This document shows positions 36,371 to 47,101 of a stretch of 64,000 nucleotides of DNA, in pieces. This stretch comes from Barrientosiimonas humi. GTDB taxonomy: Bacteria > Actinomycetota > Actinomycetes > Actinomycetales > Dermatophilaceae. Numbering within the stretch: the first letter of the stretch is position 1; the number at the start of each line of letters is the position of its first letter. The notes beneath the pieces are model-generated. The model did not search any database, was not told the DNA's origin, and saw only the letters and a list, made by a program, of their open reading frames with translations. The position numbers were made by a program, and so were the translations under genes. The DNA is taken from the NCBI RefSeq assembly GCF_006716095.1, contig NZ_VFOK01000001.1, forward strand, positions 3,255,375-3,319,374. The letters are read 5' to 3'.

Positions 36371-37228
36371 TCAGGCCGCCTTCGTCTCGGGGTCGAGCAC
36401 GAAGTCGTACGAGATCGTCTGGTGCTCGCCCGCGTCCTGCGGGTCGAGCATCAGCTCGGGCTTGACCGCCGAGGCGATGTCGTCGTCGTTGTGCTCGTCG
36501 CCGGGGAAGTACAGCTGCGCGGTGAGCAGCTCGTGCCCGGGGGCGGAGGCCTTGACGTGGATGTGCGCGGGGCGCCACGCGTGCCAGCCGGCGGCGGCGA
36601 TGAGCTTGCCGCAGGAGCCGTCGGTGGGGATCTGGTAGGGCGCCGGCCGGATCGTGGTGATCTCGAAGTCGCCGTTCTCGTCGGTGGTGAACGAGGCCCG
36701 CAGGTTCCACTCGGGGATGTCCGGCGCGAACTGGGAGTAGAGCCCGTCGTTGTCGGCGTGCCACACCTCGACCTTGGCGCCGGCGAGCGGGGAGCCGTCG
36801 GTGGAGGTGACCTTGCCGGTCCAGACCAGCGGCGTGCCGGTCTCGCCGTCGCGCATCGGGAGGCTGCCGCGGGCGCCCTGGTCGGGCGAGTCGGGCACGT
36901 AGTAGGGGCCCTCGATCGTGCCCTTGTTGCCCTCGCGGTGCTCGGTCGCGACCTCCTCGACGACGTGCTCGATCCACACGTCGAGGAACAGCGGCCACTC
37001 GCCGTCCTCGCCGACGCTGATCAGCCACGACTTGAGCGCGTTGTACTCGTCGTAGGTGACCTTGTGGCGGCGGATGGTGTCGTGCACCGCCCCGACGACC
37101 TCGCGCGCGAGCAGGTCGACCCGCTCGGGGTCGGCGCTCGCGCCGGCCTTCTTGTCGCTGCGGAACCGCTCGGTGGCCGAGGCCCCCGACGAGGCGGCGC
37201 TGGGGGCCTGGGTCTGTTCCTGCGTCAT
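36371..37228 (-). CDS. catA: Catechol 1,2-dioxygenase
   Basis: A 285-residue intradiol dioxygenase that opens catechol to cis,cis-muconate. The Fe(III) ligands are in place: Tyr in GPYYVPDSP, Tyr in APYQIPTDG and two His in WRPAHIHVKA. The N-terminal helical dimer domain (TYDEYNALKSWLISVGEDGE) is normal. ATG 37228 follows GAAGGAG; the in-frame ATG five codons earlier lies inside that site. Confidence 0.96.
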   Translation of the reverse strand: MTQEQTQAPSAASSGASATERFRSDKKAGASADPERVDLLAREVVGAVHDTIRRHKVTYDEYNALKSWLISVGEDGEWPLFLDVWIEHVVEEVATEHREGNKGTIEGPYYVPDSPDQGARGSLPMRDGETGTPLVWTGKVTSTDGSPLAGAKVEVWHADNDGLYSQFAPDIPEWNLRASFTTDENGDFEITTIRPAPYQIPTDGSCGKLIAAAGWHAWRPAHIHVKASAPGHELLTAQLYFPGDEHNDDDIASAVKPELMLDPQDAGEHQTISYDFVLDPETKAA

Positions 37229-37268
37229 GGCGTTCTCCTTCATTCCTGGTGGGTGAGTGGGGTGCGCG

Positions 37269-38372
37269 TCACCGGTCGGACCGGTAGCGCTGGAGCTTGT
37301 CGGGGTCGATCTCGACGCCCAGGCCGGGACCGGGCCGCACGGTCAGCACGCCCTCGCGGATCTGCAGCGGCTCGGTGAGCAGGTCGTCGCTCATGTCGAG
37401 GAAGTTGGACAGCTCGCCGGCGCGTGCGGCGGTGAGCCGGAAGGCCGCGCCGAACGCGACCGTGCAGACCGTGCCGAGCTGGCTGTCGATCTGGTTGCCC
37501 ATGACTGATTCCACCCCCAGCGACTCCGCGAGGTGGTGCACTCGCGCGGATCGGGTGAACCCCGTGCGGGCGGTCTTGATCGACAGGGCGGTGGCCGAGC
37601 CGGCGAGCAGCTCGCGCACGGCGTCGGCCGGCGTCACCGCCGACTCGTCGGCGATGAACGGCACGTCGCACTGCTGCACCAGCCAGTGGCGGCCGAGCAC
37701 GTCGTCGGCGGGGCACAGCTCCTCGGCGAACAGCAGCCCCAGGTCGGCCATCTCGCGCATCGCGCGCGCGGAGTCGGCGGCCGACCAGCCGCGGTTGCCG
37801 TCGACATAGAGCTCGACGTCGTCGCCCAGGTGCTCGCGCAGCGCGCGCACCACGGCGACGTCGAGGCGATAGGGGTTGCGGCCGACCTTCACCTTGAACG
37901 TGCCGATGCCGTACGTCTGTCGCACCCGCTGCGCCTCGGTCACCATCGCCTCGGGCGAGTCGAACCCCAGCATGTGCGACACGCGCATGCGGTCGGTGAA
38001 CCCGCCGAGCAGCTCGGTCACGGGCAGGCCGACGGTGCGGCCCAGCGCGTCCCAGATGGCCATGTCGACGGCCGACTTGGCGGCCGGGTTGCCGACCGTG
38101 CGGGACATCCGCGCGTCGACCTGCTCGCGCTCGACCAGCCGGGTGCCGACGACCTGCGGGGCGAACAGCTCGGTCACCGCGGCCACCACGCTGCGCTGCG
38201 TCTCGCCGTAGGTGAACGGGCGCGGCGGGGCGTCGGCGATCCCGACCACGCCGTCGTCGGTGTGCACCCGCACCAGCACGTGCTCGGCGGTCGACACCTC
38301 GCCGCTCGCGAAGCGCAGCGGCTTGCGGTAGGGGATGGCGTAGGGGATCGCCTCGACGGCGGTGATCTTCAT
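37269..38372 (-). CDS. catB: Muconate cycloisomerase
   Basis: A 367-residue enolase-superfamily enzyme that lactonises cis,cis-muconate. It has the catalytic Lys pair in FKVKVGRN, metal ligands in YVDGNRGW, EELC and ADESAV, and the general-base Lys in ALSIKTARTG. ATG overlaps the lysR stop by 4 bases (ATGA), so regulator and enzyme are co-translated. Confidence 0.94.
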   Translation of the reverse strand: MKITAVEAIPYAIPYRKPLRFASGEVSTAEHVLVRVHTDDGVVGIADAPPRPFTYGETQRSVVAAVTELFAPQVVGTRLVEREQVDARMSRTVGNPAAKSAVDMAIWDALGRTVGLPVTELLGGFTDRMRVSHMLGFDSPEAMVTEAQRVRQTYGIGTFKVKVGRNPYRLDVAVVRALREHLGDDVELYVDGNRGWSAADSARAMREMADLGLLFAEELCPADDVLGRHWLVQQCDVPFIADESAVTPADAVRELLAGSATALSIKTARTGFTRSARVHHLAESLGVESVMGNQIDSQLGTVCTVAFGAAFRLTAARAGELSNFLDMSDDLLTEPLQIREGVLTVRPGPGLGVEIDPDKLQRYRSDR

Positions 38373-39280
38373 CGTGGGGCTCCCGTGGCGGAGGGGCGGT
38401 CGGTGAGGATGCCGGCGGCGTCGAGCACCCCGACGACCTGCTCGACCAGGGCCGAGGCCGGCTCGTGCCAGGCCAGCGCGAGCTCGACGGCGCCGGCGTC
38501 GGTGACGTCGTGGAACGTCACGCCCTCGAGCGGGAGGGCCCGGGCCGACTCGGGCACCAGCCCGATGCCGAGCCCGGCCGCGACCAGCGCGAGCAGCACG
38601 GCGGTTCCGGGGGCCAGGTGGCTGCGCCGCGGCGTGAATCCTGCTGCGCGAGCTGCGCGTTGGATGGCCTCGTTGACCGCGGAGTCCTTGCTGGCGTACA
38701 GCACGAAGCCCTCGGTGCGCAGGTCGGCCATCGCGATCTCCGGCTCGTCGACGAGGCGGTGGTCGCTGGGGAGCGCCAGCACGAGCGGCTCGACGGCGAT
38801 GGCGCGCACGGCGGTGTCGTCGCCGGTGGCCGGCGGGCGCAGCACGGCCAGGTCGAGCCGGCCTTCGCTCAGCCCCTCGCACAGCTGCGGGGTGAGCTGG
38901 TCGGCGTGCACCTCGAGGTCGATGTCGGGCAGGTCGCGCTCGATCGCCCGGGCGATGGCGGGCAGCTGGGAGAACACGGCCGTCCCGGTGAACCCGATGC
39001 GCGCCAGGCCCCGGCGCCCCGCGGAGATGCGTTGCACGCCGGTGGCGCTGGCGTCGACGGCGTCGAGGATGCGGCGGGCCTCCTCCAGGAGGTACTCCCC
39101 GGCCGGGGTCAGCGAGACCTGCCGGGTGGTGCGCGTGAAAAGCGTTGCGCCCAGGTGGGACTCGAGCTGTCGCACGCTCTGGGAGAGGGCGGGCTGGGCC
39201 ATGTGCAGGCGCTCGGCGGCGCGGCCGAAGTGGCAGGTCTCGGCGACGGCCACGAAGTAGCGCAGGTGTCGCAGCTCCAC
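38369..39280 (-). CDS. LysR-family regulator of the ben/cat genes (CatR/BenM-like)
   Basis: A 303-residue LysR protein: N-terminal winged HTH (MELRHLRYFVAVAETCHFGRAAERLHMAQPALSQSVRQLE) and an effector-binding domain with ARIGFTGTAVFSQLPAI and GLGIGLVP. Relatives sense benzoate and/or cis,cis-muconate. Unlike most, it is the first gene of the cat operon and fully coupled to catB. It faces benA across a 213-base gap and probably regulates both directions. Confidence 0.88.
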   Translation of the reverse strand: MELRHLRYFVAVAETCHFGRAAERLHMAQPALSQSVRQLESHLGATLFTRTTRQVSLTPAGEYLLEEARRILDAVDASATGVQRISAGRRGLARIGFTGTAVFSQLPAIARAIERDLPDIDLEVHADQLTPQLCEGLSEGRLDLAVLRPPATGDDTAVRAIAVEPLVLALPSDHRLVDEPEIAMADLRTEGFVLYASKDSAVNEAIQRAARAAGFTPRRSHLAPGTAVLLALVAAGLGIGLVPESARALPLEGVTFHDVTDAGAVELALAWHEPASALVEQVVGVLDAAGILTDRPSATGAPR

Positions 39281-39493: not shown

Positions 39494-40873
39494 ATGACCC
39501 AGTCGCTGGACCACCTGGAAGAGGTGCTGGCCAACGCCGTCGTCGACGACGCCGAGGCCGGCGTCTACCGCGCTAACCGGCGGATCTTCACCGACGAGGA
39601 GCTCTTCGAGCTGGAGATGAAGCACATCTTCGAGGGCAACTGGCTCTACCTCGCGCACGAGAGCCAGGTGCCGGAACCAGGGGACTACTTCACGACGTAC
39701 ATGGGGCGCCAGCCGGTCGTGATCACCCGCGACAAGAGCGGCGAGCTGCACCTGCTGATCAACGCCTGCGCCCACCGCGGCGCGATGATCTGCCGGCGCA
39801 AGACCGACAACCGCACCACCCTCACCTGCCCGTTCCACGGGTGGACGTTCCGCAACGACGGCACGCTGCTGAAGGTCAAGGACCCCGACGGCGCCGGCTA
39901 CCCCGAGACGTTCGACACCGACGGCTCGCACAACATGACCAAGGTCGCGCGGTTCGACTCCTACCGCGGGTTCCTGTTCGGCAGCCTCAACGAGCACGTG
40001 CTGCCGCTGGAGGAGCACCTGGGCGACACCACGAAGGTCATCGACCTGCTCGTCGACCAGTCGCCCGACGGCCTGGAGGTGCTGCGCGGCTCCTCGACCT
40101 ACACCTACGACGGCAACTGGAAGGTGCAGGCCGAGAACGGCGCCGACGGCTATCACGTGACCGCGACGCACTGGAACTACGCCGCCACCACCTCGCGCCG
40201 CGGCACCGGAGACTCGGCCAACGAGACCAAGACGCTGGACGCCGGCAGCTGGGGCAAGTCCGGCGGCGGCTACTGGTCCTACCCCAACGGCCACCTGTGC
40301 CTGTGGACCTGGGCCGGCAACCCCGAGGACCGCCCGCTGTGGGACCGCCTGGACCGGCTCAAGGAGCTCTACGGCGAGGCCAAGGGCGAGTTCATGGTCA
40401 AGGGCAGCCGCAACCTGTGCCTCTATCCGAACGTGTACCTGATGGACCAGTTCTCCACGCAGATCCGCCACTTCCGGCCGATCTCGCCGGAGCAGACCGA
40501 GGTCACGATCTACTGCATCGCACCCAAGGGCGAGAGCGCCGAGTCGCGCGCCTGGCGCATCCGGCAGTACGAGGACTTCTTCAACGCCTCGGGCATGGCC
40601 ACGCCGGACGACCTGGAGGAGTTCCGCTCCTGCCAGCTGACCTTCCAGGCCTCGGCCGCCCCCTGGAACGACATGAGCCGGGGCGCCGTGCACTGGCTGT
40701 CCGGCCCCGACGAGGTGGCCACCAAGCTCGGCATGACCGGTGTGGTCTCGGCCGGGCTGAAGAACGAGGACGAGGGGCTCTACCCCGTGCAGCACGGCTA
40801 CTGGCTGACGGTGATGCGCGAGGCGCTGGAGTCCGAGCGGCAGCACGAGGCGAGCGAAGGAGCGGCGTCATGA
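39494..40873 (+). CDS. benA: Benzoate 1,2-dioxygenase large (alpha) subunit
   Basis: A 459-residue Rieske oxygenase subunit. The Rieske [2Fe-2S] ligands are Cys92/His94 (CAHRG) and Cys112/His115 (CPFHGW). The mononuclear iron site has His221 and His226 in [11 protein letters not shown]. With BenB and electrons from the BenC part of the fusion it makes the cis-1,2-diol of benzoate. ATG follows GGAGGAGCC. Its stop overlaps benB by 4 bases. Confidence 0.96.
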
Positions 40874-41427
40874 CCACCACCGACCCGACCACGGACGTAC
40901 GTCAGGAGCCGGCTGCGAGCGACGGCGCACCGCGAAAAGCCATCTCGCAGAACGACATCGAGCAGTTCCTCTATCGCGAGGCGCGCTACCTCGACGACCG
41001 CGAGTTCGAGAAGTGGCTCGAGTGCTACGCCGACGACTGCGAGTACTGGATGCCGGCGTGGGCCGACGACGACCGGCTCACCGACGACCCGCAGCAGGAG
41101 ATCTCGCTGATCTACTACCCCAACAAGGGCGGGCTCGAGGACCGGATCTTCCGCATCCGCACCGAGCGGTCGAGCGCGACGTCGATCCCCGAGCCGCGCA
41201 CCAACCACAACGTGAGCAACGTCGAGGTGATCGAGCGGCGCGGCGACGTGCTGGACGTGCGCTTCAACTGGCACACGATGTACTTCCGCTACAAGACCGT
41301 CGACCCCTACTACGGGACGACGTTCTGCACGATCGACTTCTCCGGGGAGTCGCCGCTGATCCGTCGCAAGACCGTGGTGCTGAAGAACGACTACATCCAC
41401 CACGTCGTCGACGTCTACCACTTCTGA
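40870..41427 (+). CDS. benB: Benzoate 1,2-dioxygenase small (beta) subunit
   Basis: A 185-residue ring-hydroxylating dioxygenase beta subunit (cystatin-like fold): [36 protein letters not shown] and [20 protein letters not shown] are typical. It has a structural role with BenA. An N-terminal extension of about 25 residues precedes the conserved part. It carries one GACGTACGTC decamer (40894-40903). Confidence 0.95.
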
Positions 41428-41445: not shown

Positions 41446-44235
41446 ATGAGCCACCAGGTAGCGCTGTCCTTCGAGGACGGGGTGACGCGGTTCGTCACCT
41501 GCGCCGAGGACCAGACCGTCGCCGACGCGTCATACCGCGCCCGCATCAACATCCCGCTCGACTGCCGCGACGGCGCGTGCGGCACCTGCAAGGCGTTCTG
41601 CGAGTCGGGTGAGTACGACGGCGGCACCTACATCGACGACGCGCTCAGCGACGCCGAGGCCGAGGAGGGGTTCGTGCTGCCGTGCAGCATGAGGCCCCGC
41701 TCGGACCTGGTGCTGCAGATCGCCTCGACGTCGGCCGTCGCCAAGACCCAGGCCGCGAGCTACACCGGTGAGGTGACCCGGCTCGACCGGCTCTCCCCCA
41801 CCACCGTCGCCCTGTCGCTGAAGATCCCCGACCGCGACAAGCTGACCTTCCTGCCCGGGCAGTACGTCAACATCGCCGTCCCCGGGACCGACCAGACCCG
41901 GTCGTACTCCTTCTCCAGCGCGCCCGGCGAGGACGAGCTGAGCTTCCTGGTGAAGATCACCCCCGGCGGCCTCATGTCGGATCACCTGACCGGCGTTGCG
42001 GCAGTAGGCGATTCGGTGACCTTCACCGGGCCGCTGGGCAGCTTCTTCCTGCGCGAGACCGCCCGGCCGGCGCTGCTGCTGGCCGGCGGCACCGGGCTGG
42101 CGCCGATCCTCGCGATCCTGCGCAAGCTGCGCGACGACGCCATCGAGCGACCGATCCACCTGATCTACGGCGTGAGCACCGACGACGACCTCGTCGAGCT
42201 CGACGCGATCGAGGAGCTCGCGGCGCAGCTGCCCGGGCTCACCTGGGACTACTGCGTCTCCGACCCCGGCAGCAGCGCGCCCAACAAGGGCTACGTGATG
42301 TCGCTGATCCAGCCCGAGCACCTGCACGAGGGCGACGTCGCGGTCTACCTGTGCGGCCCCCCGCCGATGGTCGAGTCGGTGCGTCAGCACTTCACCGACG
42401 CCGGCCTGACCCCCACCGGGTTCTACTACGAGAAGTTCGCGCTGTCGGCGGCAGACGCGGAGCCCGCTGAGCCGGTCGAGCCCTCCAAGCCGGTTGAGCC
42501 CTCCAAGTCGGTTGAGCCTGTCGAAACCCCCGCGCCCGAGCCGGTCGAGCCCGTCGAGACCCCCGCGCCGCTGCACCTGGTTCCCGACCCCGACCTCGCC
42601 CGGGAGGTGGCCCGGCAGCCGGTGTTCGTGCCGCGCGAGACCGCACCGCTCACGGTCCCGGCCGCGGGGCTGGACCGGTCCGCCGAGGCGACGCTGCTGC
42701 GTCAGGTCACCCGCCAGCGCGTCTACGCCGGCCGCGAGTCCGACCCTGCCGCAACGGTTTCCGCGGTCGACCTGGCACCCGACGACGAGCTGGTGCTCGC
42801 GCCGCAGGCACGCGAGGTGACCCGCCAGGTCGTCTTCCCCGAGCGCGTTGTCCAGCCCCTGGTGGCACCGCCCGTGGTGGCACCGCCCGCAGGGCCGGCC
42901 GTGGCGGACTCCCCGTCCGAGCCCGCGCCCGTGGCGCCGGACGCACCCGGCCAGCAGCCGGCGTACGAGATCGGCGAGGAGCACCCGTCGGTGCACGAGT
43001 CCGACGCGGTGTTCGAGGCGCGGCAGGCGCTGGAGCTCGGCGCGATCGAGCTGACGATCGGGCGGCTCGGGTCGCAGCAGCTCGCGGGATACCGCTTGCT
43101 GGCCGAGTCGACCCTGCCGTACGTCGACGCCGAGTCCGAGAGGTTCGTCGACGCGGGCGCCTACACCGAGTCCAACGCCGCGTTCCACGACTACCTGTTC
43201 GGTCAGACGCGCAACGAGCACCTGCTGCAGGCCTATCAGGCGCTCGGCGTGAAGGGGCACATGGACGCGGTGCTGCGCAACGCCACCTGGTGCCACCCGC
43301 GCTGCGCGACCGACCACGTCGAGATCGTCGACGCGTTCGAGGCCGGCGACCGCGAGGCTGCGCGGCGGCTGGTCGTCGAGCACGCCGAGCGGTCGAAGGT
43401 GACCATGCGGCGGGCGATGGCCGACGCGCAGCAGCGGCTGCGGCCGGCGCACGTCAGCCCGGGCCGGTTCGACGGCCTGGCGGTGCTGATCACCGGCGCC
43501 GCGCAGGGCATCGGCGAGGCCGTTGCGCGGCGGGTGAGCGCCGAGGGCGGCTCGGTCGTGCTCGCCGACCGCTCCGACTCGGTCGGCGGAATGGCCTCCG
43601 AGCTGGCCGCCGCAGGTCGCGAATCCCTCGCTGTCACAGCCGATCTGGAGACCTGGGAGGGTGCGGAGAAGGTGGTCGACCAGGCGCTCGCGAAGTTCGG
43701 CCGCATCGACGTGGCGATCCACACCGTCGGCGGGACGATCTGGGCGAAGCCGTTCACCGACTACCCGCCCGAGCAGGTCGAGGCCGAGATCTCGCGCTCG
43801 CTGTTCCCCACCCTGTGGGGCTGTCGGGCCGTCGCGCCGCACATGGTGGCGCGCGGGACGGGCACGATCGTCAACGTCTCCTCGGTCGCGACCCGCGGGC
43901 TGAACCGGGTGCCCTACGCCGCGGCCAAGGGCGGCGTCAACGCGATCACCACCTCGCTGGCGATGGAGCTGGCGCCGCATGGTGTCCGCGTCGTGGCGAC
44001 CGCCCCCGGAGGCACCGAGGCGCCGCCGCGCCGGATCCCGCGCGGCCCGGCGCCGGAGAGCGACGAGGAGAAGCAGTGGTACCAGACGATCGTCGACCAG
44101 ACCGTCGACTCCTCGCTGCTCAAGAGATACGGCACGCTCGACGAGCAGGCCGCCGCGATCTGCTTCGTCGCCTCGCCGGAAGCGTCCTACATCACGGGGA
44201 CGGTGCTGCCGGTCGCCGGCGGCGACCTCGGGTGA
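41446..44235 (+). CDS. benC: Trifunctional fusion: BenC reductase - FCD ligand domain - BenD diol dehydrogenase
   Basis: One 929-residue frame without internal stops. Residues 1-95 are a plant-type ferredoxin (Cys40, Cys45, Cys48, Cys80) and about 100-335 are the FAD/NADH reductase (RSYSFSS at 152, GGTGLAP at 214, CGPPPM at 303), together a full BenC. About 336-505 is a Pro/Val/Glu linker with three copies of an R-x-V-x-R-Q motif (386, 419, 456). About 515-665 is an FCD domain, the sensor half of GntR/FadR regulators, with its metal-type His residues (His581, His624, His646) but no HTH. Residues 675-929 are BenD (TGAAQGIG, HTVGGTIWAKPF, Tyr824, Lys828), which oxidises the diol to catechol. 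BenC and BenD are normally separate proteins of about 340 and 260 residues. Confidence 0.9.
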   Translation: MSHQVALSFEDGVTRFVTCAEDQTVADASYRARINIPLDCRDGACGTCKAFCESGEYDGGTYIDDALSDAEAEEGFVLPCSMRPRSDLVLQIASTSAVAKTQAASYTGEVTRLDRLSPTTVALSLKIPDRDKLTFLPGQYVNIAVPGTDQTRSYSFSSAPGEDELSFLVKITPGGLMSDHLTGVAAVGDSVTFTGPLGSFFLRETARPALLLAGGTGLAPILAILRKLRDDAIERPIHLIYGVSTDDDLVELDAIEELAAQLPGLTWDYCVSDPGSSAPNKGYVMSLIQPEHLHEGDVAVYLCGPPPMVESVRQHFTDAGLTPTGFYYEKFALSAADAEPAEPVEPSKPVEPSKSVEPVETPAPEPVEPVETPAPLHLVPDPDLAREVARQPVFVPRETAPLTVPAAGLDRSAEATLLRQVTRQRVYAGRESDPAATVSAVDLAPDDELVLAPQAREVTRQVVFPERVVQPLVAPPVVAPPAGPAVADSPSEPAPVAPDAPGQQPAYEIGEEHPSVHESDAVFEARQALELGAIELTIGRLGSQQLAGYRLLAESTLPYVDAESERFVDAGAYTESNAAFHDYLFGQTRNEHLLQAYQALGVKGHMDAVLRNATWCHPRCATDHVEIVDAFEAGDREAARRLVVEHAERSKVTMRRAMADAQQRLRPAHVSPGRFDGLAVLITGAAQGIGEAVARRVSAEGGSVVLADRSDSVGGMASELAAAGRESLAVTADLETWEGAEKVVDQALAKFGRIDVAIHTVGGTIWAKPFTDYPPEQVEAEISRSLFPTLWGCRAVAPHMVARGTGTIVNVSSVATRGLNRVPYAAAKGGVNAITTSLAMELAPHGVRVVATAPGGTEAPPRRIPRGPAPESDEEKQWYQTIVDQTVDSSLLKRYGTLDEQAAAICFVASPEASYITGTVLPVAGGDLG

Positions 44236-44299: not shown

Positions 44300-47101
44300 G
44301 TGACCGCGAGGGATCCGGTCGGACGTGACGCCGAGGTCGCGCAGCTGGTGGAGCTGGTCCGCCTGCCGCGCGACCGCGGCATGTCCGTCGCCCTGGTGAC
44401 CGGTCCGCCGCGGGTGGGGCGCAGCACCGTGCTCGACGCCGTGGCCGCGCAGCACGACGGCCCGGTGCTCCGGGCGCACGGGCTGCCCTGGGAGAGCGCA
44501 CGGCCCGGGGCCGTGCTGGACCAGCTGGTGGGCTCGGTCGGTCTCGACCTCGACACCGACGCAGACCCGATCGCCGCCGCGACGCGGCTGCGGGACGCCC
44601 TGGTGGCCGGCGACGCGGCGGGTGCGCCGGGTCGCGGTCCCTCGCCGGCCGACGACGCCGACGCGGCCGCCGGCGAGGATGCCGCGGTGCTCGTCGTGGT
44701 CGACGACCTCCACCGGGCCGACGCCGAGTCGCTGCAGGCGCTGGCGTCGCTGCGCCGGCACCACCCCGACGCTGCCGTGCGCCTGCTGCTGTCGATCCCG
44801 ACCGGTGGCGCCTCGCACACCGAATCCGCTGCTGCCAGTGGGCTGCTCGCCGATCTCGCCGACCTGAGGATCGAGCTGGGGCCGCTCGACGCGGACGCGG
44901 TCGCCGCGCTCGCCGCGCGCCGTGGCATCGCCCTCGCTCCCTGGGCGGTCGAGCGGCTGCGCGCCCACACCGGCGGACGGCCCGGACCGATCGCGGCCCT
45001 GCTGGCCGAGTCCGAGCCCGCCACCTGGGCCGAGCCCGCGGGGGAGCTGCCGGCCCCGGCGGGCACGACCGCGGACGTACGTCGTCGGCTGGGTGACCTC
45101 GCTCCCCCGGCTCGGCGCCTCGTCGAGGCGGCCGGCGTGCTGCAGCCCGACGGCGGGCTGGCACTCACCGGGGAGCTGGCACAGGTCGACGACGTGTGGT
45201 CGGCGGTCGATGCGGCCGTGGCCAGCGGCCTGCTGCGCGTCGCCGGTCCGCCGGGTGCGCCCCGGGTGCGGCTGAGCGACCCGATGGTGGCCGCGGCGGT
45301 GCGCGCGCAGGTCGGCACCGCCGGGGTGCGTGCGCTGCACCTGCGCGCAGCAGAGCTGGTCGCCGACCCGGCCGACGCGCTCACCCACCGGGTCGCGGCC
45401 GCCGCCGGCCCCGACGACACGCTCGCGCACGAGCTCGACGACGCCGCCGAAACCTTTGCAGCACAAGGGGCTTGGGGTCGCACCGCGGCGCTGCTCGCCG
45501 ACGCGAGCCGGCTGTCGTCCGGGCGGCGCGAGCGCGAGTCGCGGCTCACCCGCGCGGTCGACGCGCTCGTGGGCGCGGGTGACGTGCACGCCGCGCTGGC
45601 GCTGCTGCCCGAGGTCGAGAGCCTGCGCGAGACGCCGCTGCGCGACGCGGTGCTCGGCTATCTGGCCATCCTGCGCGGACGAGGTGTCGACGCGCACGCG
45701 CAGCTGGACCGCGCGTGGGCGATCGTCAACGCCGACCGCGAGCCGGCGACGGCTGCACTGATCAGCCAGCGGTTCGTCCTCGATGCGCTGTGCCGCGGGG
45801 CGTGGACCGAGCTGGTCACCTGGGCCGACCGGGCGGTGGCGCTGGGCGGCGCGGAGTCGGCCGAGGGCGTGGAGTCCGCAGCGATCCGCGGGCTGGGCCT
45901 GGTCGCGGGGGGCGAGATCGCGGAGGCGCGGAGGGCGTACGCCGGGCTGCGGGAGACCGTGCGGCACGGGGCGCAGGCCCAGCGGGTGCTCCTCGGCACC
46001 GGCTGGCTGCTACTGGCGACCGACGAGGTCGCGGCGGCGCGGGCGGCGCTGGAGCGGGCCGTGCCGCTCAGCCACCACGGCGGCTCGACGCGCATCTCGC
46101 TGTGGGCGCGGGCCTGGCTGGCGCGGGCGCAGTTCCGCAGCGGCGACTGGGACGAGGCGGTGCGCACGGCCACCGAGGGGCTCGACCTGGTCGACGCCTC
46201 GGGCATCGTGCTAACCCGTCCGCTGCTCGGGTGGACGCTGGTGCAGGTGCACACCCTGCGCGGTGACGACGAGGCCGCCCTGCACGCGCTGCGCGGCACG
46301 GAGTCGGCGCCGCAGGACTACGCGACGATGCGGGTGCCCACGCTGCTGGCCCGGGCAGCCCTCGCCGAGGCACGGTCGGACCACGAGGGGGTGGTCGCGG
46401 CGCTCACGCCGCTCACTGATCCCCTGCTGGCAGAGGCCGTCTCGGAGCCGGGGTACTGGCCGTGGGTCGAGCCGCTGGTGTCGGCCCTGGTGGGCCTGGG
46501 GCGGCTCGCGGAGGCGTCGGACCTGCTGACCGCGACCGAGGAGCGGGTGGGCGCGCGCGGCGGCCCGCCCTCGGCGGTGGCGCGGCTGGCGCGCGCCCGG
46601 GGCCGGCTGGAGGCGGCGCGCGGCAACGGCAACCTCGCCGCCGCGCGAGAGGCCTTCGAGACTGCGCTCGAGCAGCTGGCGGGCACCCCGCTGCGGGTCG
46701 AGCGCGCGCACACCCTGTTCGCTTTCGGGCAGGTGCTGCGCCGTGCGGGCAAGCGCGGCGACGCCGACCCGCTGCTGACCGCGGCGCGCGACGGCTATGC
46801 GGCGATCGGTGCGCGGGCCTGCGTCGAGCGGTGCGAGCGGGAGCTGCGCGCGGGCGGGGTGCGCGGCCGGTCGGGGCCCGAGGGCGCCCGGGCCGAGCGC
46901 GCGCCCACCGACCTCACCCCGCAGGAGCGGGCCGTGGCCGACCTGGTCGCGCAGGGCAGGTCCAACCGGGAGGCCGCCGACGTGCTCTTCCTGTCGACCA
47001 AGACGGTGCAGTACCACCTGACCCGCATCTACGCGAAGCTCGGCGTCCGCTCGCGCACCGAGCTCGCGGCGCAGTGGGACCCGACGACTGAGCACCCCTG
47101 A
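44300..47101 (+). CDS. Large ATP-binding LuxR-family regulator (LAL-like)
   Basis: A 933-residue regulator. It has an N-terminal AAA/STAND ATPase (Walker A region GPPRVGRST at 35-43; Walker B VLVVVDDLHRAD near 130-141), a long helical TPR-like middle (about 400-860) and a C-terminal LuxR HTH (LTPQERAVADLVAQGRSNREAADVLFLSTKTVQYHLTRIYAKLGV). The Walker A lysine is replaced by Arg41, which may weaken or abolish nucleotide hydrolysis. GTG 44300 is 64 bases after the ben fusion on the same strand, so it could be an extra regulator of aromatic genes. Confidence 0.85.
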   Translation: MTARDPVGRDAEVAQLVELVRLPRDRGMSVALVTGPPRVGRSTVLDAVAAQHDGPVLRAHGLPWESARPGAVLDQLVGSVGLDLDTDADPIAAATRLRDALVAGDAAGAPGRGPSPADDADAAAGEDAAVLVVVDDLHRADAESLQALASLRRHHPDAAVRLLLSIPTGGASHTESAAASGLLADLADLRIELGPLDADAVAALAARRGIALAPWAVERLRAHTGGRPGPIAALLAESEPATWAEPAGELPAPAGTTADVRRRLGDLAPPARRLVEAAGVLQPDGGLALTGELAQVDDVWSAVDAAVASGLLRVAGPPGAPRVRLSDPMVAAAVRAQVGTAGVRALHLRAAELVADPADALTHRVAAAAGPDDTLAHELDDAAETFAAQGAWGRTAALLADASRLSSGRRERESRLTRAVDALVGAGDVHAALALLPEVESLRETPLRDAVLGYLAILRGRGVDAHAQLDRAWAIVNADREPATAALISQRFVLDALCRGAWTELVTWADRAVALGGAESAEGVESAAIRGLGLVAGGEIAEARRAYAGLRETVRHGAQAQRVLLGTGWLLLATDEVAAARAALERAVPLSHHGGSTRISLWARAWLARAQFRSGDWDEAVRTATEGLDLVDASGIVLTRPLLGWTLVQVHTLRGDDEAALHALRGTESAPQDYATMRVPTLLARAALAEARSDHEGVVAALTPLTDPLLAEAVSEPGYWPWVEPLVSALVGLGRLAEASDLLTATEERVGARGGPPSAVARLARARGRLEAARGNGNLAAAREAFETALEQLAGTPLRVERAHTLFAFGQVLRRAGKRGDADPLLTAARDGYAAIGARACVERCERELRAGGVRGRSGPEGARAERAPTDLTPQERAVADLVAQGRSNREAADVLFLSTKTVQYHLTRIYAKLGVRSRTELAAQWDPTTEHP

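Follow-up and report, generated by a model that had tools for sequence, protein, structure and literature searches.

We examined a stretch of 64,000 nucleotides from Barrientosiimonas humi (contig NZ_VFOK01000001.1, forward-strand positions 3,255,375 to 3,319,374; hereafter "the window"), in which one gene joins the benzoate dioxygenase reductase BenC to the cis-diol dehydrogenase BenD through an FCD domain, the type of effector domain found in GntR-family regulators. The gene (41446..44235, + strand) encodes 929 residues from ATG to stop. An earlier note on this DNA had described the frame as a complete BenC, a linker, an FCD domain and a complete BenD, and both the list of open reading frames and the family models confirm that description. 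An artefact of sequencing or assembly, which the note had named as what would overturn it, is excluded because 69 further distinct BenC sequences share the architecture. The reductase module (Fer2, FAD and NAD domains; residues 3-332, 41452..42441, +) scored 485.8 bits against the NCBIfam equivalog NF040810 (cut-off 430), and the dehydrogenase module, of the short-chain dehydrogenase/reductase (SDR) type (residues 674-929, 43465..44232, +), scored 418.6 bits against the equivalog NF040811 (cut-off 380). Cys40, 45, 48 and 80 of BenC are invariant among 22 aligned fusions, as are the glycine-motif residues, Tyr824 and Lys828 of BenD; residues 683-690 and the Tyr824/Lys828 pair, all intact here, are what we take to be the glycine and YxxxK motifs of SDR enzymes.

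The fusion gene comes after benA, for the large subunit of benzoate dioxygenase (39494..40873, +; TIGR03229, 796 bits, cut-off 780.95), and benB, for the small subunit (40891..41427, +, start codon unsettled; TIGR03232, 269.4 bits, cut-off 225.55). Both subunit genes adjoin the fusion gene and score above cut-off. The BenC module would pass electrons to BenAB, and we regard the gene product, with the same reserve as the explanation set out below as a whole, as a protein that may supply benzoate dioxygenase with electrons and oxidize the diol. The BenC of the Pseudomonas plasmid pWW53 has the same reductase domains (NF040810), but it is a stand-alone protein of 336 residues with a separate diol dehydrogenase gene, whereas BenC of the fusion continues into FCD and BenD. 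BenC consumes NADH and BenD produces it, and recycling from BenD to BenC is a chemically feasible possibility. The protein falls outside two familiar classes. GntR regulators carry an N-terminal winged helix-turn-helix (HTH); the Pfam listing for the 929-residue protein (10 families, E up to 1) contains no HTH, residues 386-514 are predicted to be disordered, and a DNA-binding role was rejected because of this absence. Self-sufficient Rieske oxygenases would hold oxygenase and reductase in one chain, and the fusion is not one of them because BenA and BenB are encoded in separate frames.

The FCD domain (residues 522-648, 43009..43389, +) was recognized by Pfam PF07729 at 55.5 bits (gathering cut-off 24.3; E 9.8e-15). 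The structure prediction proposed in the earlier note was made with AlphaFold2 for the FCD domain alone, from an alignment without L035, which is among the seven named loci of the BenC-FCD type; the model had a predicted local distance difference test (pLDDT) score of 91.8 and matched GntR effector domains. Its best Foldseek match was the inducer domain of DhdR with its inducer (DhdR matches at E 3.0e-4), followed by a DhdR entry naming L2HG and then by other GntR effector domains. The VIA Z scores were 16.3 for 3c7j, 16.0 for McbR (root-mean-square deviation 2.4 over 139 residues) and 14.9 for NanR, and rows outside the GntR-type regulators began at 5.7. As modelled, the domain resembles effector domains that bind hydroxy acids; no paper on the DhdR structure was found in the literature searched. 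The fold is shared with the metal-binding FCD domains of GntR regulators (Atu1419/VanR, NanR, TM0439, DhdR), although theirs are carried on a DNA-binding domain and that of the fusion on two enzymes. By sequence, the matches to solved structures are weak (best E 0.017 with a profile and 0.21 with the single sequence), and an ATPase inhibitor with no relation to FCD stands second in the profile search, at E 0.02; it is therefore the fold match and not the sequence match that carries weight.

Within this fold lie the three histidines recorded in the earlier note, His581 (43186..43188, +), His624 (43315..43317, +) and His646 (43381..43383, +), with the spacings of 43 and 22 that it gave. All three are predicted metal ligands, align with His176, His222 and His244 of NanR, and are invariant in 100 FCD rows, which comprise 70 fusions (window included), 27 BenC-FCD proteins and three forms joined to a cytochrome P450 (described below). 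Asn577, Arg526 and Tyr573 had been missed, as had the three-copy linker motif and the wide occurrence of the architecture. Asn577 (43174..43176, +; kept in 99 of 100 rows) corresponds to Asn137 of Atu1419 and is, from the sequence, the probable fourth metal ligand; by spacing, Arg526 (43021..43023, +; 100 of 100) corresponds to the citrate-contacting Arg86 and Tyr573 (43162..43164, +; Tyr in 73 rows, Phe in 27) to Tyr133 of the same protein. In Atu1419, the zinc ligands are N137, H141, H192 and H214, and all bound citrates touch R86, Y133, N137, H141, H214 and N221 (PMC7797058). The R86-Y133-N137-H141 spacing reported there (+47, +4, +4) is that of R526-Y573-N577-H581 in the fusion, and the interval of 22 between H192 and H214 is that between H624 and H646. 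The Asp/Asn and three His of the metal-binding FCD subgroup would thus be represented by N577, H581, H624 and H646. In NanR, zinc is held by D172, H176, H222 and H244 together with the carboxyl and hydroxyl of the ligand (PMC8012715), and the FCD profile pairs these four residues with positions 577, 581, 624 and 646. Sixteen of 146 FCD positions are invariant, including Arg526 and the three histidines; the hypergeometric figure of 0.0001 for the site was obtained with positions chosen beforehand from Atu1419, but is not a fair probability, as the rows are related. The suggestion in the earlier note that the FCD part binds benzoate, its cis-diol or a metal is thus strengthened as regards binding, by an HTH-less FCD inside an enzyme in which the three histidines and an arginine that touches the carboxylate ligand of a relative are invariant, but not as regards the identity of the ligand.

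BenC is separated from the FCD domain by a Pro-rich linker (residues 333-506, 42442..42963, +) that is predicted to be disordered; in the full-length model, segments 328-381 and 386-514 lie below pLDDT 50. A conserved lead-in, YEIGEEHP (residues 507-514, 42964..42987, +), precedes the FCD domain, and its Tyr507, Ile509, Gly510, His513 and Pro514 are kept in all 69 other fusions, Gly510 and His513 also in 26 of the 27 BenC-FCD rows. Among the 63 fusions that our patterns parsed (seven of the 70 were omitted), the distance from the end of BenC to His581 ranges from 136 to 311 residues, and the spacing of His646 and the glycine motif of BenD is 37 residues in 57 cases, with a range of 34-40 across the 63. 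Because the FCD-BenD spacing is nearly fixed and the linker is disordered and variable, FCD looks as if it forms a single body with BenD, to which BenC is attached as a tethered arm.

Three copies of a motif are found in the linker, at residues 386-394 (42601..42627, +), 419-427 (42700..42726, +) and 456-464 (42811..42837, +). In its strict form, Arg-x-Ile-Ala-Gly-Gln-x-Val-Phe, the motif occurs at least once in 60 of the 70 fusions and in none of the 27 BenC-FCD linkers; by eye, several of the ten remaining fusions hold degenerate copies. There are 103 strict copies against 0.1 expected by shuffling, a contrast that is not a fair probability, given that the pattern was set post hoc and that related sequences all counted at full weight. 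The absence from BenC-FCD linkers is partly an effect of length, since most of these are short (21-49 residues in 22 of 27). The motif was also sought in neighbouring genes, as a pointer to a partner: within the window, frames of at least 80 residues contain three strict copies, all in the fusion linker, and none was found in frames shorter than 800 residues at the 28 named loci L009-L036. It looks like a docking motif. Five unfused BenC-FCD proteins (L112, L113, L114, L121 and L122) have long linkers of 150-215 residues with another repeated motif, Ala-Arg-Pro-Val-Gly-Tyr. The linker DNA of the window also holds two related 19-base copies (42510-42561); a mobile palindromic repeat was considered as the source of the linker repeats and rejected, because the 17-base core occurs only once in the genome (with up to one mismatch).

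The earlier note knew of no described enzyme with this domain order. For the literature searched, that statement stands: no report of a BenC-FCD-BenD fusion was noticed in titles and abstract openings among the matches listed, and no paper naming an FCD domain in a benzoate reductase was found in a search that took in few subscription papers. For genomes it does not hold, as the architecture search returned 70 fusions. We parsed 104 distinct BenC sequences into (i) these 70 BenC-FCD-BenD proteins (window included), (ii) 27 BenC-FCD proteins with BenD in a separate frame, and (iii) seven without FCD, namely L048 (cut by a contig end), L066, L110, L116, L117, the distant L068 and L070, from an Azospirillum plasmid. 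A scan of named genomes yielded 29 loci, but having been seeded by FCD it cannot count FCD-less genes. The full fusion was present at 21 of them (L009-L029), in Knoellia, Nocardioides, Agilicoccus, Mycolicibacterium, Skermania, Saccharopolyspora, Amycolatopsis, Actinomycetospora, Nocardia, Propioniferax and a metagenome member of the Dermatophilaceae; at seven (L030-L036, Paeniglutamicibacter and Arthrobacter) a separate BenD frame lies immediately downstream of BenC-FCD, and one (L037) has FCD without BenC.

Surveys by family, phylum and class, which share genomes and each include that of the window, gave a similar picture. A whole-protein search of the window's family matched in 13 of 149 genomes, with the fusion in 11; the other two were a BenC cut by a contig end with BenD elsewhere and a BenD-like match only. 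BenC was found in four of 396 genomes of the phylum (three fusions and one BenC-FCD) and in 14 of 394 of the class (11 fusions, one BenC-FCD and two without FCD, one of the latter only 41% identical). In one other family it was found in 101 of 301 genomes, of which only those fetched were parsed. In these samples, few genomes of the phylum have BenC, and those that do usually have it as the fusion. The fusion also occurs on a plasmid of Tsukamurella, among the same neighbouring genes, under a record name that gives only BenC, and the other annotated example, from Paraburkholderia sp. FT54 (see below), is likewise named only "BenC".

A tree of 110 BenC domains was built by a quick method with only Shimodaira-Hasegawa-like approximate likelihood-ratio test (SH-aLRT) support, leaving out L048 as cut by its contig; 36 of its 107 inner branches are weak, being drawn open, and a single distant row determines its root. 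All 70 fusions fall in one clade (support 100), which also contains the FCD-less L066, and the fewest changes on the tree are five for the presence of FCD and two for the fusion to BenD. At L066, a locus that L118 covers at greater length, BenC stops just past a remnant of the linker motif and BenD restarts behind it; this is a secondary loss of FCD, by which BenD was freed again. The FCD-less L110, L116 and L117 fall among BenC-FCD rows and have benA and benB. L110, nested in this way with L109 and L111 as its close relatives, represents a natural removal of FCD. Mean identity among the 36 of the 70 fusions with a complete BenD is 72.3% for FCD, 69.3% for BenC and 70.4% for BenD.

BenC-FCD is also joined to a partner other than BenD. 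A plasmid search with a BenC-FCD protein reached a Paraburkholderia protein in which BenC-FCD is followed by a cytochrome P450, represented by five records of 90-100% identity over the full length, three of which Pfam resolves into Fer2, FAD, NAD, FCD and P450 domains. The frames lie at L136:6004-8793 (the plasmid of Paraburkholderia sp. FT54), L137:1504-4290 and L138:1534-4320. Their BenC domains branch beside the FCD-bearing BenCs of actinobacteria (support 93), and neither benA nor benB is present beside the gene in the one annotated neighbourhood examined. The chain would thus seem to be a P450 that is self-sufficient and encloses a domain of the regulator type. The self-sufficient CYP116B/RhF enzymes too join a 2Fe-2S/flavin reductase to a P450, but in the reverse domain order; the Paraburkholderia form has FCD between the parts. 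Because it is coupled to P450 in Paraburkholderia as well, BenC-FCD is a unit that has been joined to two different partners.

The earlier note had proposed that FCD ties reductase output to BenD. This finds no support in the 27 BenC-FCD frames without BenD and in the BenC-FCD-P450 form, and because of these same forms FCD should belong first to the reductase. An extension of BenC has been met with before: in 2001 Haddad, Eby and Neidle reportedly found that the BenC of Rhodococcus sp. 19070, named BopZ, is longer at its C-terminus by about 201 residues that resembled no known protein; the extension is said not to have been recognized as FCD, and BopZ to be unfused to a diol dehydrogenase. BenC-FCD frames are of about that length (e.g., L099, an open frame of 524 residues), and the BenC extension is probably the one reported for BopZ.

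The fusion gene has further neighbours. Upstream and divergent from benA lies a gene for a LysR-family regulator (38369..39280, -; Pfam HTH_1 and LysR_substrate), for which no model reached its cut-off among the 25 NCBIfam models listed of 46. Beyond it are a catB-like gene, for a muconate cycloisomerase-like protein (37269..38387, -, start unsettled; TIGR02534, 203.5 bits, below the cut-off of 334.95), and catA, encoding catechol 1,2-dioxygenase (36371..37243, -; TIGR02438, 482 bits, cut-off 404.4). Downstream of the fusion gene, a large frame ending at 47101 had no NCBIfam match at E 1e-10; its C-terminus looks like a LuxR-type HTH. Past it, on the opposite strand, are genes for 3-oxoacid CoA-transferase and 3-oxoadipate enol-lactonase.

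We propose that the FCD domain, with the help of a metal, binds a carboxylate of the pathway, probably the benzoate cis-diol, that it gates the reductase and that it is rigidly joined to BenD; we put the probability of this explanation at roughly 0.45. In FCD, Asn577, His581, His624 and His646 would coordinate Zn2+ (or an ion like it), and the carboxylate bound would most likely be the cis-diol formed by BenAB. The cis-diol, 1,6-dihydroxycyclohexa-2,4-diene-1-carboxylate, is favoured because it has a hydroxyl and a carboxylate on one carbon, a chelating pair like that of the NanR ligand; the ligands of NanR and, to judge by its entry title, of DhdR are the same kind of acid. Binding may shift the conformation of FCD and so gate reductase output, with less NADH burnt in the absence of substrate or when product accumulates. 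In the fused form, FCD may hand the bound diol to the rigidly joined BenD or, alternatively, the diol level may be read where the diol is consumed, and NADH from BenD could be reused by BenC. The linker motifs probably serve to attach the protein to a partner, with BenAB the first candidate. A carboxylate sensor that gates electron supply would account for BenC-FCD, BenC-FCD-BenD and BenC-FCD-P450 alike.

Several observations weigh against this explanation. Four dioxygenase loci without FCD (L066/L118, L110, L116 and L117) keep benA, benB, benC and benD (benA of L110 runs off the locus), indicating that FCD is not essential. In the 27 BenC-FCD proteins, FCD changes faster (62.6% mean identity) than BenC (71.4%) and BenD (73.6%), and the Paraburkholderia P450 form is not explicable by a hand-off of diol to BenD. 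The full-length model, with a predicted template modelling score (pTM) of 0.46, gives no trustworthy domain packing and was set aside for that purpose. As to the site, the interval between the first and second histidines is 51 in Atu1419 and 43 in the fusion, the match to Atu1419 was taken from the residue numbers in PMC7797058 and not from a superposed site, and the NanR alignment by FCD profile, at E 0.017, is near noise. Finally, PMC6608401 states that the majority of FCD domains retain the histidines, and a kept site therefore does not single out a ligand.

The main rival is that FCD does no more than keep BenC and BenD together, as a scaffold for dimerization or docking, with a metal site of structural function. 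We consider this less likely than ligand gating but a serious alternative: the triple His mutant of Atu1419 melts at 34 C instead of 52.6 C (PMC7797058), so that the site of that protein is structural as well, the near-fixed FCD-BenD spacing fits a rigid strut, and the two changes for BenD fusion on the tree, read as one gain and one loss, fit a pre-existing contact. A scaffold explains less readily why Arg526, which is no metal ligand in Atu1419 or NanR, is invariant in 100 of 100 rows, although a purely structural arginine is possible, or why only Tyr and Phe occur at position 573 across the 100 rows; both are as expected of a ligand pocket.

That FCD senses the substrate benzoate instead of the diol, opening the reductase only when substrate is present, is less probable again. 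It would give one job to BenC-FCD, BenC-FCD-BenD and BenC-FCD-P450, and residues at the positions paired, in the weak NanR alignment, with the NanR ligand contacts Asn165, Arg203 and Asn215 are mostly Ala, Met and Pro, so that largely apolar side chains at 570 (Ala 79, Ser 10, Pro 8, Val 3 of 100 rows), 606 (Met 97, Ile 3) and 618 (Pro 70, Glu 18, Gly 10, Ser 1, Gln 1) fit an acid with an apolar body. Benzoate, however, lacks the hydroxyl that binds the metal alongside the carboxyl in NanR (PMC8012715), and position 618 is variable (30 of 100 rows are not Pro). That FCD is a functionless relic of the gene fusion, a view for which the four loci that lack FCD and keep the other ben genes could be cited, is very improbable, given that it equals the catalytic domains in conservation across the 36 fusions compared and that its site residues are invariant.

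Returning to the gating explanation, a broader form of it, held slightly more tentatively, is that a GntR effector domain was recruited once as the ligand-sensing module of an NADH reductase, founding a ligand-gated redox family (BenC-FCD, BenC-FCD-BenD and BenC-FCD-P450) whose members would detect a pathway acid within the enzyme instead of at the DNA, and in which the BenD form is a redox-balanced reductase/dehydrogenase pair on one chain with docking motifs for the oxygenase. Whatever its function, the name "BenC" in the databases conceals BenD and FCD, or FCD and P450, and automated pathway calls may therefore list benD as missing. According to a 2025 review (PMC12445004), the activity and coupling of artificial fusions need to improve, and there is no known Rieske oxygenase that is self-sufficient. 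The fusion is a natural example of a reductase joined to other redox enzymes. Electron supply is a control point at which uncoupled oxygenases waste NADH and generate reactive oxygen. If the gating explanation is true, it would account for the extra C-terminus of the Rhodococcus BenC, reportedly an old puzzle, and a sensor domain of transcription factors would act here, within an enzyme, as a sensor for electron supply.

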